From: Sthenelais limicola
Taxonomy: Eukaryota; Annelida; Polychaeta; Phyllodocida; Sigalionidae
DNA length: 64,000 nt
Assembly: GCA_942159475.1 (NCBI GenBank)
Contig: OW804097.1
Coordinates: 36,282,298-36,346,297, forward strand
Reading direction: 5' to 3'
Shown in pieces: positions 32,713 to 53,107 of the stretch. The notes beneath the pieces are model-generated. The model was not told the DNA's origin. It did not search any database and worked only from the letters and a program-made list of their open reading frames with translations. A program made the position numbers and the translations under genes. How positions within the stretch are numbered: the first letter of the stretch is position 1; every line of letters begins with the position of its first letter.

Positions 32713-32785
32713 GGAAGAGGATGACCGTCTAGAGGACGGGTACTTTGCTAGTGTATTTAAAAATGAGATGAGGTAAGATCATATT

Positions 32786-33251
32786 TTTTTTTTTTTTTAA
32801 ATTTTATTGGTCAAAGTTTCATATCATGATAGTTCTCATTTGCCAATTGAAAAACAATATTCCTTAAATCTCTACTATAATATTACATCTCGATCATCTC
32901 AGTTACCTTACATTATCATTATACTTTAATTTGTTTAATCTGTTATTTTCTACTCATTACATTCTACGATCATCAATTACAATTTAATATATCTCGCCGA
33001 GTCGTTTCAAACAAAACAATTCTGCTTAATACAATTATTACATAATTACCGGTACAAGTTTTTGTAATTTTTTTTGTGGCCTGTTAAAACATATATATGC
33101 AAGTTCGCGGATAAAATACAATAGTAACCGCACCTTTATAGTTATAAACTATATCCATTCTAGTCACTCCGCTTCTCGACCTTTTTGGTCTCAATACATT
33201 TCTGGTCAGTGTTAAGTAGTTAGGTTCGGCAAGTACATATATCTCAGGCTT
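32786..33251 (-). other. LINE 3' UTR and poly(A) tail
   Basis: This AT-rich, non-coding stretch follows ORF2 and ends in an A run (T run at 32787-32800 on the plus strand). The abrupt change to purine-rich satellite DNA at lower coordinates marks the insertion boundary. Confidence 0.7.
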
Positions 33252-36155
33252 TTATTGTCGCCAGTTGTTATTACCTTTGAGGGTTTTTTTCAGTATACCC
33301 CACTCTTTGATTTTATCAACAGGGTCAAGTCGATTCCAGATCCTTGGACCTTGGATATGAGGTGATCTATTGTATTTTTCTGTTCTACTGATCGGCTGTA
33401 TGAGGTTAATTCCTCTAGCCTGCCTTGTCTGTCTAGGCATTTCCTGAACATACATGGGATTTTTGGCAAACGTATACATTAGGCCTTGTATGGCTATGTC
33501 TGCCCTTTTTCTAAAGGTATCCACTCTTAGGTTATTGCGCATTTCATCAGTTGTTAGTACACCCTGATTGTTAAATACAATTCGAATGGCCCGGTTCAAT
33601 ACACTTTGCAGTTTTGTTATTGTGCTGCAATTACTCATGTTATACAAGATGTTTCCGTACTCGGCCAGTGATAAAATATGAGATTTTACAATAGTGGTTG
33701 CCATTTCTTTGTTTAGGCACGGTCGTAACCTGGATAGACAATTAACTTTCTGTTGGATGATATTCTTCATTTTCATAAAATGAACATTAAAATTTACATT
33801 CTCGTCTATTTGGTATCCCAAATATCTTACTACTTTGGCCTGGCTTATCGGTCGACCTTCAATATAACAATTCTCCAGATCTCTGAAATTAATCTGTTTC
33901 AGTTTATTTTTAGACCCTATTATCTGCAGTTGACACTTTTTTGAATTTACCTTCAACTGGTTAGCTTTCATCCAGGAGGAAAGTTCGTTTGTTACGACCT
34001 GTGATATATTCAGACATTCATTTTTATTCGTGCCTGTAACGGTTATGGCCGTATCGTCTGCGTAGATACTAATACCTATTTTAATTTCATCATTTGGTAC
34101 TACTACTCTATTAAGGCAGTTGGGCAGGTCGTTGACATATATAAGAAAGATAAGCGGTCCTATTATACTCCCTTGTGGCACGCCCTGATTGATGTTTAGT
34201 GGGTCTGATAGTGTTTCTCCCAATTTAGTTCATTGGATACGATTTGTCAGGTAGTTACCTATTATGTCTATGATCTTTTGGTTTACCCTGTAGAATTCTA
34301 ATTTTTTCATTAGAACATTATGACTTATGGTATTAAAGGCCTTGGCCACGTCATAATATATTGCAGCTGTTATCTTGCCTTTATCTATCCCTTCTATTAT
34401 TGGCCCTAGGAATTCATAGGTAGTTCTGTTAGTAGAATGATTCTTGCGAAAGCCACCCTGCTCTTTGGCGAATAAATTATTTAGGTCCATATGTTCCCTT
34501 AGTGAGTTAGCTATAAACGACTCTAAGAGTTTTGAGGGTAAAGGTACCAGTGCTATCGGCCTTTGTTGTTGAAGGTCCCTGACATTAGTTGATTTGGGTA
34601 TGGGGGTGATGGAATATTCTTTCCATTCAGTAGGAATCTTAGAAGTAGAAATACATAGTTTCAATAGCCTAGTTGTAGTATGAAGAAGATTCAAGAGATA
34701 CAGTTTCAGGGTGCGGGAATTTACCCACTCCCATCCACTGCTCTTATTGTCATCCGAGTGTATTAGGAATGACCGAACTTTCTCTTCGCTAATCAATATT
34801 CTGGTAGAGGCTATGTTCTCATTGTCTCTTTCCAGATAATTTTCGAATTCTATATTCTCTTCCAATCCGTTATCACTCATATTCTTAAAAATAGTGTTTA
34901 AGATATTGCTTGCTTCTTTCCCTTTGACATTCTGTCCCTCGTTAACATAGTTCTCAGGGGTTGCCGCTTTGGCCTTACCTAACAATCCGTTCAGTCTATA
35001 CCAAAATTTTTTGCTGTTTTTTTCACAACTACTCAGGGATTCAAAAATATAAGTTCGTTTTGCTCCTCGTATTAGTCTAGCTGTATTTGCCCTTGCTCTA
35101 GATGCATTAGCAAAATCAATGTCATTTTTTGTGAGTTTCGCAATTTTGAATAATCTATCACGATTCTTTATCGCTGCCATACATTCTCTGTTTAGGAGAA
35201 GTTTACCACGATGTATCACAGACTTAGATTTAAATGGACAGTTCACATCTAGATACTCTGTTAGTTTTTTTCTAAGTTTCACCCATAGTGCCTCACTGGT
35301 AGTGTATTCTTCAGGTGAGAATGTGTTTTCGGTCACTAGTGTATCACAATAATTCTTGAAGTTTTCCTCATTAAGATTATCGTATTTTCGTTCAACACGA
35401 GTTGTTTTGTTTACCTGACCTTTTCTCTTCTTTAAATTAATAAAAGTTCCCAGATGGTCGGATACATTGATGTTAATTACACCAGCAGTATTACAATGCG
35501 GATGATCACTAACAATTACATCCAGTAGGCTATTTTTGTTTCTACTCATTCTGGTTGCTTCGTTAATATGTAGCTTTAGTGAGTGTTCCCCAATTAAATG
35601 TTTGAATTCGGGTACTGCTTCACTTCTTCGATCAAGTAGGTCTATATTTATGTCACCACCAATTATTATGTTACAGTATGGGTTTCTTTCCTTAATTACA
35701 GTCAAAGCATTTCCTAATTCTTCTATAAATGCCTTCTTACATCCCGCTGGTGGACGGTAGGTGTTACATAAGATAATGCTACGTCTCGCACCAGGCTTAC
35801 AATGTAAAACCTGAAGCTCTATATTTGCATTGCAACGATTACAGTCAGATAGTATATGCATATCAACGTTAAAAGTACAGTCAATATAATTACATAGACC
35901 TCCTCCTTTCTTTCTTATGTCACCATTTACAATATCTCTATCTAGTCGATAGATCTTGTACTTATTATTAAATGAGATTTGGTCGTCATAATCAGAGCTG
36001 TCTAACCAGGTTTCCTGGAGCATTATTATCTTGATATTTCCCTTGAGCAACCGATCATTAACTTCTGCTACTTTATGTCTGAGTGAACGAATATTTAGCG
36101 ATAGGATTGTGAGTCCTTTCAGCTCGCTAACATTATCTAAATCATCCCACACCAT
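33252..36155 (-). pseudogene. LINE ORF2: AP-like endonuclease and reverse transcriptase, one in-frame TGA
   Basis: The frame runs from the ATG at 36155 to the stop at 33252 and would be about 966 residues. It is interrupted once by an in-frame TGA at 34232-34230, with no frame change. The endonuclease part (about residues 15-245) shows LSLNIRS, QETWL, a GGG loop, YRPP, GGDINIDLL, SLLDVIVSD and SDHLGTF, so its catalytic Asn, Glu, Asp and His positions are present. The reverse transcriptase shows GGFRKNHST, motif A YYDVAKAFN, then after the stop motif B QGVPQGSIIGPL and motif C YADD. The C-terminus has the usual SHILSLAEYGNILYNMS region and an IWNRLDP motif. The stop falls between motifs A and B, so an active RT would not be made without readthrough. 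Otherwise the copy looks young. Confidence 0.88.
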
Positions 36156-37052
36156 TTCTTGCAAATATCGTGAGTTTGTTATATTCGTGGCAAGCGTAGA
36201 AGGAGTACGTTATTACATACAGAACTGCTCTTATAATTTGCGTATAGCGAACAATAAAACGATACAATAGTGGCCATGACATATATAAAAACAATTTGCA
36301 CATGTTTGCCCTCATAGGGCTCGACTCTGACAACAACACACGCGTCGACTGAGCTTCACACCTCACCTTCCCTGAATATACTTAACTACGGCTAAAAACC
36401 AATATCGAGACAATCAACATTCTTCAGTTATACAATGACATTGAACAATTCGTGTAATACCTTATATGACAACAAATACATACTTTTAGGTAGTTTCGTC
36501 TAGCCGTATCCCGTACCAAGGCACCCGTGCGACTCCATTTTGAAACATTACTGCAGCAAATTTTTATCTAGGATATCATTGGTCATGCGACTTTTGCTGA
36601 CTCACTCTCCTACCATATATATGTCCTCTTATAATTCAGTGAATTGTTATTCTAATCGTTTTTACAATTATAGACCTTATTTCCACATATACAAGAACAA
36701 TCGTTTCCCGTTATTATTTGTTAACAATGTGAGTAATGTGAGTTACATTTTCACTGCGGCTAGTCCGCCGACCTTGACATTCGTATTGACCTCGTGGTCT
36801 GTTTGTAAACATTAGCACGTGTGATGATTGCACATGTAGGCGATAGTTATACAAGTACGCCTTGCGTTGTAAGTTTTCGGACTGGAAAAAATATTATATG
36901 GTCACAACTCATTATAATCAGGATTTAGATACTCTTTCGAGCTAAGAAGGGGTTATAGCAACCTTTTAATATTTTACTTTTAAATAGTATTGACGAGGCA
37001 AATTCTGTAAGTCAGTTCGTGTCGGACATGTTGATTCCGCGTGGAATTATGC
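36156..37052 (-). other. LINE inter-ORF spacer
   Basis: About 900 bases between ORF1 and ORF2 carry no convincing ORF or repeat. This is long for a LINE spacer, so part of it may be an insertion or an internal regulatory region. I see nothing decisive. Confidence 0.4.
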
Positions 37053-38828
37053 TTAGCTACCACCGTTTTCTTTGTGTTCTCTGGTGGTCGTATTAAGCTC
37101 AGTCATTGTCTCTTCAAGTGATTTGGAAACACTGCTCATATCGAGCTGGAAAAGTCCTGACGTTGGTACTAATATTGCTGGAGTACTTGTTATGTTTGCT
37201 AAGCCACGAGTATTACCTCTCGCCAAGACATCTAGGTCCATGTCAGATTCATGCCGTTCGTCAATTGAAGTACGCCTCGTCTTTGATTTTTGGTGAGTGT
37301 CGTTTCTTCCTTGGGCCAGCTGTCTTTCCTCAGTTGACGGGGATTTGTTGAAATACCTAACTCTCTGTTGCTGGTTAGGTTTTGGCGTTATCTTGGAGGG
37401 CGTAACTGCTGCTGGGGGGGGTGAGGTTGGCGTGATTTGGTGAAATTCGTGACCATATCTTTCCTTCATCTCGTTTCTAATTTCTACGAGTAGCTTGCCT
37501 TGCTGATTATACCCTTTGTTTTGCCAGGTATAGGTCCTGAGCTGCACTGCACCAAGATAATATCCGCACCCCCAGAAATTGTCCGCCGTCGCTTCAACCA
37601 TCTCATAGTCTCCTGTTGCAAGTAAGAGCCTACGTAGTTCGGGGTTTTGCTCATATTTAGCCCTCATGATTGATTTCATGTAGTCTACTTCCTTATTACG
37701 CCATTCATCATCTACCTCAAGTTTCCCTCCTCGCTCCTTAATCTCAAAGGGATCTCGCATGGCCAGTATGGTTCGTGCGGCCGCGTAGTGTCCGTTTTTG
37801 AGCGCTTTTGTGTGCACAAAGCAGTGCTCTACAGAGTAATATCGTAATTTCCTCACTTCGAATTCTGAGTAATGCAAATTACTTGGCCAGGCAAAAGGCC
37901 CCTGATACGCAATCGTACCTCCAACCTTTTGTACTTTTATGGTAGATGGTTGCAATTTATCAGGTAGACAGTCCAATTCCTTCATGCTAAACAATTTCCC
38001 TTTTAATTGTAGACGATCACCTTTGGGTTTGGCGTTGATGTCTATTGAAGTCTCGACTGCTTTCTTAGCAATCTGGCGAATTAGGCTCCTAGAGCGTCTA
38101 ACGTCTGGGTTTAGGTCTTCCTCGAATGACCAGAAGTGGTGGGCGGGGTATTCCGTTGGAGGAAAGAGATGACTATCAAAAAGTTTGCCCTTATTTACAA
38201 TGAAAGATTTCCTGTCTTTTAGGGCAATGAAGTGGACCACTATAGGATCAGGGCGGTTAGATCGACGACCATGTGTACCTTTACCTTTACTTACAAGCCT
38301 ATAGACTTCATCTAGCTTGCTCTCGTTGAAGTCGGGTACCACCAACTTTATTATTTTAGTAACAGTTGTTTCTAACTTTTCATGGTTACGTCCTCTTATG
38401 CCATTGAAGATTAATGCTCTCTCTCTCAACCTTGTGTCATAGTCATTATTTATTTCTTTCTGCACTTTGAGTTCGTAAGTTAGGTTATCCACTACTGATT
38501 CTAGGGATTTTACCTGTTTGAGGATCGCTTTTTTGAAGTCTTGCAGTTCTAACTTGCTTTGAATCTCATCTGTGTGTGAGCGAGTTAAGTCGTCTAAAAA
38601 CGCTTTTGTGTGGGTTGCGTAAGCAGCAAGTTGGTTGTGACTTGCTAACAACTGTGGTAACGTAACACTGCCTTCGGATTCACCTGCCATGTCTGTAGTT
38701 TTGGTAATATCCTTATGTGCACTAGAAATGTTTATGGATTCACTCAAGTCTTTTGATGTAGAGTTCACTTTCTTTTGCTCAGGCGAATATCCAGTTGGTT
38801 CCTCTGCCGATCGTTTATTGCTAGTCAT
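37053..38828 (-). CDS. LINE ORF1: coiled coil, L1-ORF1p-like RRM, C-terminal domain, NADAR domain
   Basis: The ORF has 591 codons from the ATG at 38828. The open frame extends 21 codons upstream without another ATG. In order: a polar N-terminus with nuclear-localisation-like basic clusters (NKRSAEE, PEQKKV); a heptad-rich coiled coil (about 84-135); an RRM-like fold (about 137-225) with ALIFNGIRG and IVVHFIALKDRKSFI, resembling L1 ORF1p; and a basic C-terminal region. A full NADAR/YbiA-like domain follows (about 301-459). It shows YYSVEHCF with the conserved Glu (E334), RAKYEQNPELRRLLLATGD, VEATADNFWGCG and GKLLVEIRNEM, which match E. coli YbiA block by block. The tail is Pro/Ser/Thr-rich. 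RNA binding and chaperoning are expected from the front half. The NADAR part implies ADP-ribose or NAD-related chemistry, by inference. The frame is fully open. Confidence 0.85.
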   Translation of the reverse strand: MTSNKRSAEEPTGYSPEQKKVNSTSKDLSESINISSAHKDITKTTDMAGESEGSVTLPQLLASHNQLAAYATHTKAFLDDLTRSHTDEIQSKLELQDFKKAILKQVKSLESVVDNLTYELKVQKEINNDYDTRLRERALIFNGIRGRNHEKLETTVTKIIKLVVPDFNESKLDEVYRLVSKGKGTHGRRSNRPDPIVVHFIALKDRKSFIVNKGKLFDSHLFPPTEYPAHHFWSFEEDLNPDVRRSRSLIRQIAKKAVETSIDINAKPKGDRLQLKGKLFSMKELDCLPDKLQPSTIKVQKVGGTIAYQGPFAWPSNLHYSEFEVRKLRYYSVEHCFVHTKALKNGHYAAARTILAMRDPFEIKERGGKLEVDDEWRNKEVDYMKSIMRAKYEQNPELRRLLLATGDYEMVEATADNFWGCGYYLGAVQLRTYTWQNKGYNQQGKLLVEIRNEMKERYGHEFHQITPTSPPPAAVTPSKITPKPNQQQRVRYFNKSPSTEERQLAQGRNDTHQKSKTRRTSIDERHESDMDLDVLARGNTRGLANITSTPAILVPTSGLFQLDMSSVSKSLEETMTELNTTTREHKENGGS

Positions 38829-39280
38829 CGCATTGTTGACGGCCAGTGTATAGTGTGACAGTGGAGGTAAACAGTATGTGGCGCGAAACAACTATATTTA
38901 TCCTATCATCGCCCAACCTTGCAATAAGTTGTGGAATCGGTGCATTTTCCTACAGACTTTTATCCAGGATGGTAGAATACGATTCTTAGTGATAGCAGGT
39001 AAGTGGTGTCCTATTCTTTTGGTCGATAAAACTTTTAGGGATAGTATTTCGGTGATCGTCGTGCTCAACAACTTTTTGCGACTTGTGCTATCGGCGCCAT
39101 CTTGTCATATTTATGTTTGCCTTTAAATAACTCTTTATCAATTAAGCACATCTGTATGGAACATGACATATATTCCATGTAGCATGTTAAGATGAATGGA
39201 TATCGCGGGCCAGGGACGAACTAATGACTAATGAAAAAACAATCCCTTCCATCATCCACCAAGCCACATCACAACACATA

Positions 39281-39442
39281 AATAGATGTAATGTAGTGAG
39301 GGCGCCATCTGTTGAACTGTTATGCATCAAGGTTGCGGCGGGATACAGAGGGGCGGAGCGCAGCGTAGTCCTGAGGTATCCCGCCGCAACCGAGATGCAT
39401 AACAGTTCAACAGATGGTGTCCGAGGTGCATTACATATTTAT
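39281..39442. mobile_element. Fold-back element, ~70-bp arms
   Basis: GCCATCTGTTGAACTGTTAT on the left pairs with ATAACAGTTCAACAGATGGT on the right, and GGTTGCGGCGGGATAC with GTATCCCGCCGCAACC. The loop is GC-rich. Confidence 0.85.
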
Positions 39443-51952: not shown

Positions 51953-52060
51953 CAGTCTAGGTCCAAAGTTGAGAGAGTCCCTACAAACGGAGGGAAAGCC
52001 TTTCGCCTCAAACCGCAAAGTGCCATTATAATTCCAATAAGACCGCAACATGTCATTATA
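51953..52060 (-). mobile_element. MITE-C, first half of a split copy
   Basis: CAGTCTAGGTCCAAAGTTGA through CCGCAACATGTCATTATA, reverse orientation. The copy continues at 53108 after the LINE fragment. Confidence 0.88.
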
Positions 52061-53107
52061 TTATCGAAACTGTATAAGGTATGTGATAAGAAAACACTCC
52101 TTCTTATTTACAAAACTACCATCCTACCACACATAGATTATGGTGACATTCTTTATTCCTCTTCTAGCCAAAAATATCTAAATAGAATTCAATCACTTCA
52201 AAATGCTGCTCTGAAAATAATTCTCGGTCTTCCAAGGCTGGCAAATACAATACAAATACACAAAGAGCTTAATATACCCTCATTAAAGAATAGAAGAGAG
52301 TCACATATTCTAGACCTCGCATACTTGCGATCGAGGAAAGTGGAAAATACGGATAATAGGAAAATAAACATTAGAGGATTAGTAAAAGGAAAGAAGTTAA
52401 TGGTTCCACACCCAAAAAACGAGATATTTAAAAGATCATATATATATAGTTTGACAACATTATGGAATGGTCTGCCAGATGAAGCCCAATTATTGGACAA
52501 TAGAAAAGAGTTTAGACGTTTTCTACGTCAACAATATGTAAATTTTGATCAATATTTAAAAGAGGAGAGTAGTCAGAGTTAACTGACTGAATGGAAAATT
52601 GAAGAAAAAAGGTTCATAATGCCAAACTAAGATCGAGACATCAATGTTAATTTTAATTGTCAAATTATTAATTTAAAATAGAAATCCACTGTATATAAGG
52701 GGTGACTTTTATTCAAAGGTCTTGTAATAACGATATAGTTCATCAGTATATGTTAGAATTAAGATATTATGTTTTACAAGCTACTTCAGAATCTGTGTCT
52801 AAAATTGTGTAAACTGCAATCTAAACCTCACAATGTCAAATTTTTATAAATACATCGCAACGAAAGTGAATTGTAAAAACAGATCGATGTAAAAATGTGT
52901 AGTCTATAATGTATATCGCCTAGCAAAAATGTAAAGTGAAATAATATAATTACTACTGTATAATACAACATCTAATGGAATGTAATTTGTTAAAATGTAA
53001 GCTTGATATTATCCGTCATTTATTATTGTTTCGGGCTTGTCGGAAGATCTATTTTTAGAGGCTTTTGTCCAGTTCTGTATATTATTATGGAATAAAAATT
53101 CAATATA
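52061..53107 (+). mobile_element. 5'-truncated LINE fragment (3' end of ORF2 and 3' UTR)
   Basis: From about 52061 an open frame to the TAA at 52580-52582 encodes the C-terminal part of a LINE ORF2 (KTTILPHIDYGDILYSSSS, LQNAALKIILGLPR, TLWNGLPDEAQ). A ~520-base 3' UTR follows and ends at a (TA)n tail near 53098. It differs from the larger LINE at 32.8-39.1 kb. It is 5'-truncated and inserted in a reverse-oriented MITE-C copy, whose halves flank it. Confidence 0.8.

Follow-up and report, generated by a model that had tools for sequence, protein, structure and literature searches.

What does a NADAR domain do inside the ORF1 protein of a LINE? This question is raised by a window of 64,000 nucleotides from the annelid Sthenelais limicola (contig OW804097.1, positions 36,282,298 to 36,346,297), in which such a fusion is encoded in one open frame. 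Excerpts of PMC11543638 and PMC9303266 describe NADAR as absent from vertebrates and its animal roles as little known outside the nematode protein SNA-3. LINE ORF1 proteins are regarded as RNA chaperones, with the esterase type as an exception, and a NADAR enzyme would add a catalytic class to them.

Architecture of the ORF1 protein

The minus-strand open frame 37053-38891 corresponds to a protein of 612 residues, and the following parts have been assigned to it.

37053..38828, minus strand: ORF1 from the shared Met; the open frame extends to 38891
38424..38660, minus strand: long helix, coiled coil, residues 78-156 (predicted model)
38118..38417, minus strand: RRM, L1 ORF1p-like, residues 159-258 (predicted model and fold comparison)
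37917..38108, minus strand: CTD and link to NADAR, residues 262-325 (model; conserved in the metagenome protein P0005)
37452..37916, minus strand: NADAR domain, residues 326-480 (Pfam, fold, pocket residues)
37053..37451, minus strand: ORF1 tail (mostly low model confidence; least conserved part of ORF1)

The original prediction, made from the letters of the window, was that a coiled coil, an L1-ORF1p-like RRM and a complete NADAR domain are present in one ORF1, and Pfam, the predicted model and fold comparison all agree with this; the NADAR span given at that time, 37452..37928, corresponds to residues 322-480. In the model and the fold comparison, the coiled coil, a single RRM and the CTD follow one another in the order that characterizes Type II (L1-like) ORF1 proteins. 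The L1 ORF1 (transposase 22) model was not among the families listed for 21 ORF1s (E up to 1; 25 of 33 families). Human L1 ORF1p (2yko) shares the fold and order of coiled coil, RRM and CTD with the window protein, but it stops after the CTD, whereas the window protein continues with NADAR and the tail. As modelled, this ORF1p can be classed as L1-like (Type II), and its CTD is followed by an attached NADAR of the YbiA family.

The NADAR domain and its pocket

Three checks of the domain had been suggested, namely a Pfam search, a structural comparison with YbiA and an inspection of the pocket residues, and each came out in favour of NADAR. Pfam NADAR (PF08719) matched residues 336-475 of the window ORF1 strongly and over nearly its full length (E=6.9e-25; 88.6 bits against a curated cut-off of 35.1), and the family was matched by 21 of 21 ORF1s (Pfam, E up to 1). 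The predicted structure has the YbiA fold. E. coli YbiA (2b3w) and the oomycete NADAR (8bau) are both free-standing enzymes, whereas NADAR here is fused in ORF1.

For the pocket, residues named for ADP-ribose binding and catalysis in PMC11543638 were mapped through 8bau, whose chain numbers in our alignment equal the published numbers plus 2; the checked residues then match the named letters. The corresponding window residues, with their occurrence in 46 distinct domains, are E355 for E43 (E in 45), K362 for K50 (K in 40 and R in 6), K385 for K75 (K in 46), W397 for W89 (W in 46), E433 for E125 (E in 45), D437 for D130 (D in 44), and W440 for W133 (W in 45). The pocket is therefore near-invariant, and NADAR appears to have retained it in full through deep divergence. 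Excerpts of PMC11543638 also report that a K-to-R change retains activity in vitro and abolishes rescue in cells, and that Glu at E125 marks the YbiA family; because the window domain has this Glu (E433), we have assigned it to that family. A Glu in the last strand was considered as the family residue and rejected, since the same source places that residue at E125, that is, at E433. The oomycete-enzyme ligand contacts R79, Y84, and R93 are all absent from the window domain in the alignment with 8bau, and the substrate may therefore differ.

The element in the window

The ORF1 belongs to a full-length element, for which the following features have been recorded.

32784..39104, minus strand: full-length LINE copy of about 6.3 kb, with its 5' end near 39104 and an A-run after AATAAA at its 3' end
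39105..39112, no strand: target-site duplication, 5' copy AAATATGA (by eye)
32779..32786, no strand: target-site duplication, 3' copy AAATATGA, overlapping the A-run (by eye)
36156..37052, minus strand: about 0.9 kb of spacer separating ORF1 from ORF2; an SGNH ORF was not detected in the window lineage
33252..36155 (or to 36164), minus strand: ORF2, endonuclease and reverse transcriptase (Pfam; comparison with L040)
34230..34232, minus strand: in-frame TGA splitting ORF2 (sequence reading)

The 5' boundary at about 39104 is the point where similarity to the copies L039 and L010 sets in. An A-run tail and a target-site duplication, as expected of a LINE, were both found by eye; because the 3' copy of the duplication merges with the A-run, the true length of the duplication is 5-8 bp. 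In the window ORF2, which is 72% identical to the intact ORF2 of L040, RVT_1 is above the Pfam cut-off in both pieces, and Exo_endo_phos and other endonuclease families are weak there; in the ORF2s of L041 and L040, endonuclease families are above the cut-off. As judged from these matches, an ORF2 with endonuclease and reverse transcriptase marks the element as a non-LTR retrotransposon (LINE) with a putative AP-type endonuclease. The window element was inserted at full length but has lost the capacity to make the full ORF2, and is thus a dead copy.

Copies in the S. limicola genome

Linkage of ORF1-NADAR to an endonuclease/reverse transcriptase ORF2 had been expected both here and in other genomic copies. 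In the window, ORF2 lies downstream on the same strand, and other linked copies exist in number: of the 30 loci L009-L038, 22 have a matching ORF2 piece downstream, with 1.5 kb of flank examined. In a NADAR search of the genome, 150 of 5,561 first-look candidates were scored and all 150 were above the cut-off; 148 had no internal stop, and 101 were inside stop-free frames of at least 560 aa. A search with the window protein gave 73 rows, representing 71 places including the window, none of which overlaps with the 150 NADAR matches, and 37 of these rows (one place being counted twice) were stop-free and at least 560 aa long.

L020-L022, three copies on three chromosomes, have a 5' end in common and show 99.5-99.7% identity over 3.6 kb. 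Among eleven LINE places examined with room for ORF2, ORF1 and a long ORF2 are both open in eight (L040-L043, L005+L046, L047, L048, and L051), although the endonuclease of L043 seems to be missing its beginning and L042 extends past the end of its stretch; L039, L044, and L050 are broken. The window element belongs to a large, diverse, and recently active LINE group of S. limicola.

Three of the 150 NADAR matches are 162-aa frames. One of this length, at L049:849-1334(-), is free-standing and adjoins a 216-aa frame (L049:3-650(-)) that has no Pfam match and that we take to resemble a Polinton- or adintovirus-type DNA polymerase. Since this NADAR adjoins a different gene, not every NADAR in the genome sits in a LINE.

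Constraint on NADAR

Within ORF1, NADAR appears by several measures to be under the strongest constraint. Of 24 invariant columns in the 21-member ORF1 alignment, 22 fall in NADAR. Among 25 sequences, part of which were picked by NADAR score so that well-kept NADARs are favoured, identity was higher in NADAR than in RRM+CTD for 261 of 267 non-independent pairs (pairs having enough columns and a NADAR identity below 0.97) and for 63 of 66 representative pairs, with means of 0.43 and 0.32. Of 20 pairs for which dN was computed, 19 could be measured (one is without the RRM part), and NADAR had the lower dN in 15 of these; one pair was tied, and the three opposite cases all concern close copies. 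Most pairs were saturated in dS. The dN/dS ratio for L027-L030 was 0.015 in NADAR, as against 0.052 in RRM+CTD and 0.166 for the tail.

The sample was also approached from the RRM side. Out of 123 matches, 20 were picked by hand, and NADAR was present in 18 of them (complete and single-frame in 11, partial or frame-broken in 7); of the remaining two, L054 has NADAR deleted and L061 is cut off. The ORF1 copy in L054 is seemingly missing NADAR alone, with the tail resuming in another frame.

Identities among eight elements were 0.12-0.57 before NADAR, 0.28-0.64 in NADAR, and 0.24-0.58 in ORF2. In Mantel comparisons with the ORF2 matrix, r was 0.93 for the part before NADAR and 0.88 for NADAR (p 0.004), largely due to three close elements, and the rank correlation of NADAR and ORF2 distances was weak (Spearman 0.26, p 0.18). 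Since the identity matrices of NADAR and ORF2 correlate, both seem to have travelled together over deep divergence.

Relatives and previous reports

A NADAR-ORF1 fusion as such is already in print, though briefly: one sentence of PMC12477816 (2025), in its excerpted text, states that ORF1 proteins of several Pacific oyster Tx1 LINE families appear to hold YbiA-family NADARs. These elements (Repbase; PMC12477816) share with ours a YbiA-family NADAR in a lophotrochozoan LINE ORF1. They may differ from ours, as far as their description tells, in that GVPQGS-type RT motifs occur here in ORF2 of five of six families checked. We take such motifs not to be those of the L1/Tx1 group, and the sequence GVPQGSILGPLLFLxYxNDL together with a C-terminal WNSLP block in the ORF2s presumably indicates CR1/L2 lineages (Jockey superfamily).

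According to excerpts of PMC12477816, an Ectocarpus Gypsy lineage has NADAR in Pol and is likewise a retroelement bearing a YbiA-family NADAR. NADARs of nidovirus, hepe-like, and picorna-like viruses (PMC9503650, excerpts) resemble the present case as selfish RNA-based replicators with NADAR beside replication proteins, but these are RNA viruses with polyproteins and without integration. The word NADAR is absent from PMC4120745, a survey of 448 elements, and literature searches on NADAR/YbiA in retrotransposons, transposable elements, ORF1, or Crassostrea gave nothing besides PMC12477816 among the matches listed. Among the same matches, we found no published account of the fusion's architecture, constraint, pocket, numbers, or annelid occurrence, or of the third ORF described below.

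Searches of a 5.8-billion protein set with the whole ORF1 and with the ORF1 alignment gave nothing at E 1e-3 (7,997 candidates scored) and 1e-5 (7,995 scored), respectively, and a search of the same set with the NADAR alignment gave five proteins among 958 candidates. One of the five, the metagenome protein P0005, has an ORF1-type CTD end directly before NADAR (25.5 bits, against 13.1 for the best of 2,000 shuffles). No relative could be confirmed in a scan of viral_contigs that used the NADAR alignment. In a NADAR tree in which 18 of 25 rows are from LINEs, one change was obtained in 56% of bootstrap trees, and P0005 is placed outside the LINE NADARs on a long branch; the tree is compatible with a single origin of the LINE NADARs, which is weakly supported.

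Possible functions of the fusion

Because of the constraint on NADAR, a catalytic role in retrotransposition is likely, and since selection seems to have kept the entire catalytic pocket, the reaction should matter for the element's spread. The domain is probably active on ADP-ribose or an N-glycosidic substrate, and the functions originally proposed for it (undoing host ADP-ribosylation, NAD-linked RNA-end processing, and signalling) fit the conserved pocket. Since this hydrolase pocket presumably sits on an RNA-coating oligomer, the substrate would be on the RNP, most simply ADP-ribose on element RNA or cDNA. We favour, as a serious but tentative possibility, the reading that ORF1p is an active ADP-ribose hydrolase on the element's own RNA or cDNA and undoes host ADP-ribosylation. 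ORF1p would coat the element RNA as an oligomer and thereby place many NADAR active sites on the RNP; these would strip ADP-ribose from the element's RNA or cDNA, so that the host modification would be undone and reverse transcription could finish. A similar role has been suggested for the macro and NADAR domains that RNA viruses have in their polyproteins. It is possible, and slightly more tentative still, that the enzyme works on nucleic acid of the element itself and serves anti-restriction or damage reversal.

Several published observations bear on this reading. According to excerpts of PMC11543638 and PMC11125620, NADARs of bacteria, an oomycete, and a phage erase guanine-ADP-ribose. Guanine-N2-ADP-ribose is the known nucleic-acid substrate of NADAR. 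PMC9503650 (excerpts) reports NADAR in polyproteins of RNA viruses. Since clams have CARP-1, a guanine-N2 DNA ADP-ribosyltransferase (PMC11209040, excerpts), lophotrochozoans can write the guanine-ADP-ribose mark. In the S. limicola genome, a search for a Scabin-like or pierisin-type writer gave no match at E 1e-3 among 16 candidates scored, and the control was equally without a match.

The strongest alternative is that NADAR acts on the element transcript, that is, on NAD- or ADP-ribose-linked ends, repair products, or cap/spliced-leader chemistry, and not on host defence. NADAR is located on an RNA-binding protein, RNA processing is proposed for retroelement NADARs in PMC12477816 (excerpts), and in nematodes SNA-3, which is essential for trans-splicing and has three NADAR domains, depends on the key residues of NADAR and makes contact with the cap-binding complex (PMC9303266, excerpts); guanine-ADP-ribose, however, is the best established nucleic-acid substrate of NADAR (PMC11543638, excerpts), and we consider this alternative somewhat unlikely. 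A less probable idea is that NADAR binds ADP-ribose, e.g., where PARPs have marked nicks at the target site, and guides the RNP to chromatin, with hydrolysis being secondary. LINE integration in mammals engages PARPs, and the phosphate- and ribose-contact positions tested are all near-invariant in the 46 domains. A pure reader would not need the catalytic Glu (E433, or E125 of 8bau), but this is kept in 45 of 46 domains, and the pocket is known for mono-ADP-ribose-guanine (PMC11543638, excerpts).

Riboflavin intermediates are substrates of bacterial and plant NADARs (PMC11543638, excerpts) and soluble ADP-ribose signals may be targets of phage NADARs (PMC9503650, excerpts), and the domain might similarly break down a riboflavin-type intermediate or a soluble signal derived from NAD, the element being a mere carrier. 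Because every intact copy examined has NADAR permanently fused to an RNA-binding chaperone, a soluble substrate is less likely, and we regard this proposal as quite improbable. A captured passenger domain without function could be imagined from the dead window copy, with its TGA in ORF2, and from single damaged or NADAR-deleted copies such as L054. This explanation has been rejected as having almost no probability, being practically refuted by the stop-free frames of at least 560 aa around 101 of 150 scored matches and by the position of NADAR as the most conserved part of ORF1 in invariant columns, dN, and pairwise identity.

Beyond the preferred reading, in which ORF1p hydrolyses ADP-ribose on nucleic acid of the element itself, a wider and more doubtful scenario is that NADAR-LINEs go back to an ancient radiation among invertebrates, during which a NADAR eraser turned into a core and most-constrained module of ORF1p. 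If this is true, some invertebrate hosts restrict retrotransposons by ADP-ribosylating RNA or cDNA, and retroelements carry the counter-enzyme, as do some RNA viruses and phages. The conservation of NADAR hints that jumping genes and their host are engaged in a chemical contest, and NADAR-LINEs bear on the question of whether nucleic acid is ADP-ribosylated in animal germ lines, and by which writer.

A third ORF in related elements and other sequences in the window

A separate ORF is present between ORF1-NADAR and ORF2 in L005, L006, L008, L042, L047, L048, L050, and L051, and is broken in L007. The copies with the SGNH-hydrolase fold are as follows.

L005:2492-3199, plus strand: third ORF, SGNH-hydrolase fold
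L008:2631-3281, plus strand: third ORF, SGNH-hydrolase fold
L042:3817-4458, minus strand: third ORF, SGNH-hydrolase fold
L047:5044-5988, minus strand: third ORF, SGNH-hydrolase fold
L048:4410-5348, minus strand: third ORF, SGNH-hydrolase fold
L051:5022-5756, minus strand: third ORF, SGNH-hydrolase fold

Pfam matches of this ORF are weak, and the assignment comes from a fold search with the predicted model, which did find an esterase; a search of its profile against PDB sequences found none. At the triad positions Ser, Asp, and His, DSRG and DGxH are invariant in 7 of 7 sequences. In block III, where GxND is expected of SGNH hydrolases, all seven have GIC(D/E), with Cys at the position of the oxyanion Asn. 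Since this Asn is missing, we claim an SGNH fold for the third ORF and not esterase activity. The esterase ORF1 of ZfL2-1 (PMC3905857, PMC4120745; excerpts) is likewise a LINE-encoded SGNH-fold enzyme, and its Ser, Asp, and His positions are kept here; there, however, it is part of ORF1, whereas here it is a separate ORF behind an RRM-NADAR ORF1, with Cys for the oxyanion Asn. Excerpts of PMC4120745 describe the esterase ORF1 type as found in vertebrate groups only.

With three of the third ORFs as queries, tblastn gave no match in the window, L040, L041, or L043. These elements have an unusually long spacer between ORF1 and ORF2 (about 0.6-0.9 kb; 36156-37052 in the window), which is perhaps a relic of the third ORF.

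Two other sequences in the window have been noted. Another LINE ORF2 fragment, with 26-39% identity to the NADAR-LINE ORF2, is present at 51986-52540. Just upstream of the insertion, at about 39285-39435, there is an inverted-repeat-like stretch (by eye), perhaps of a different mobile element.
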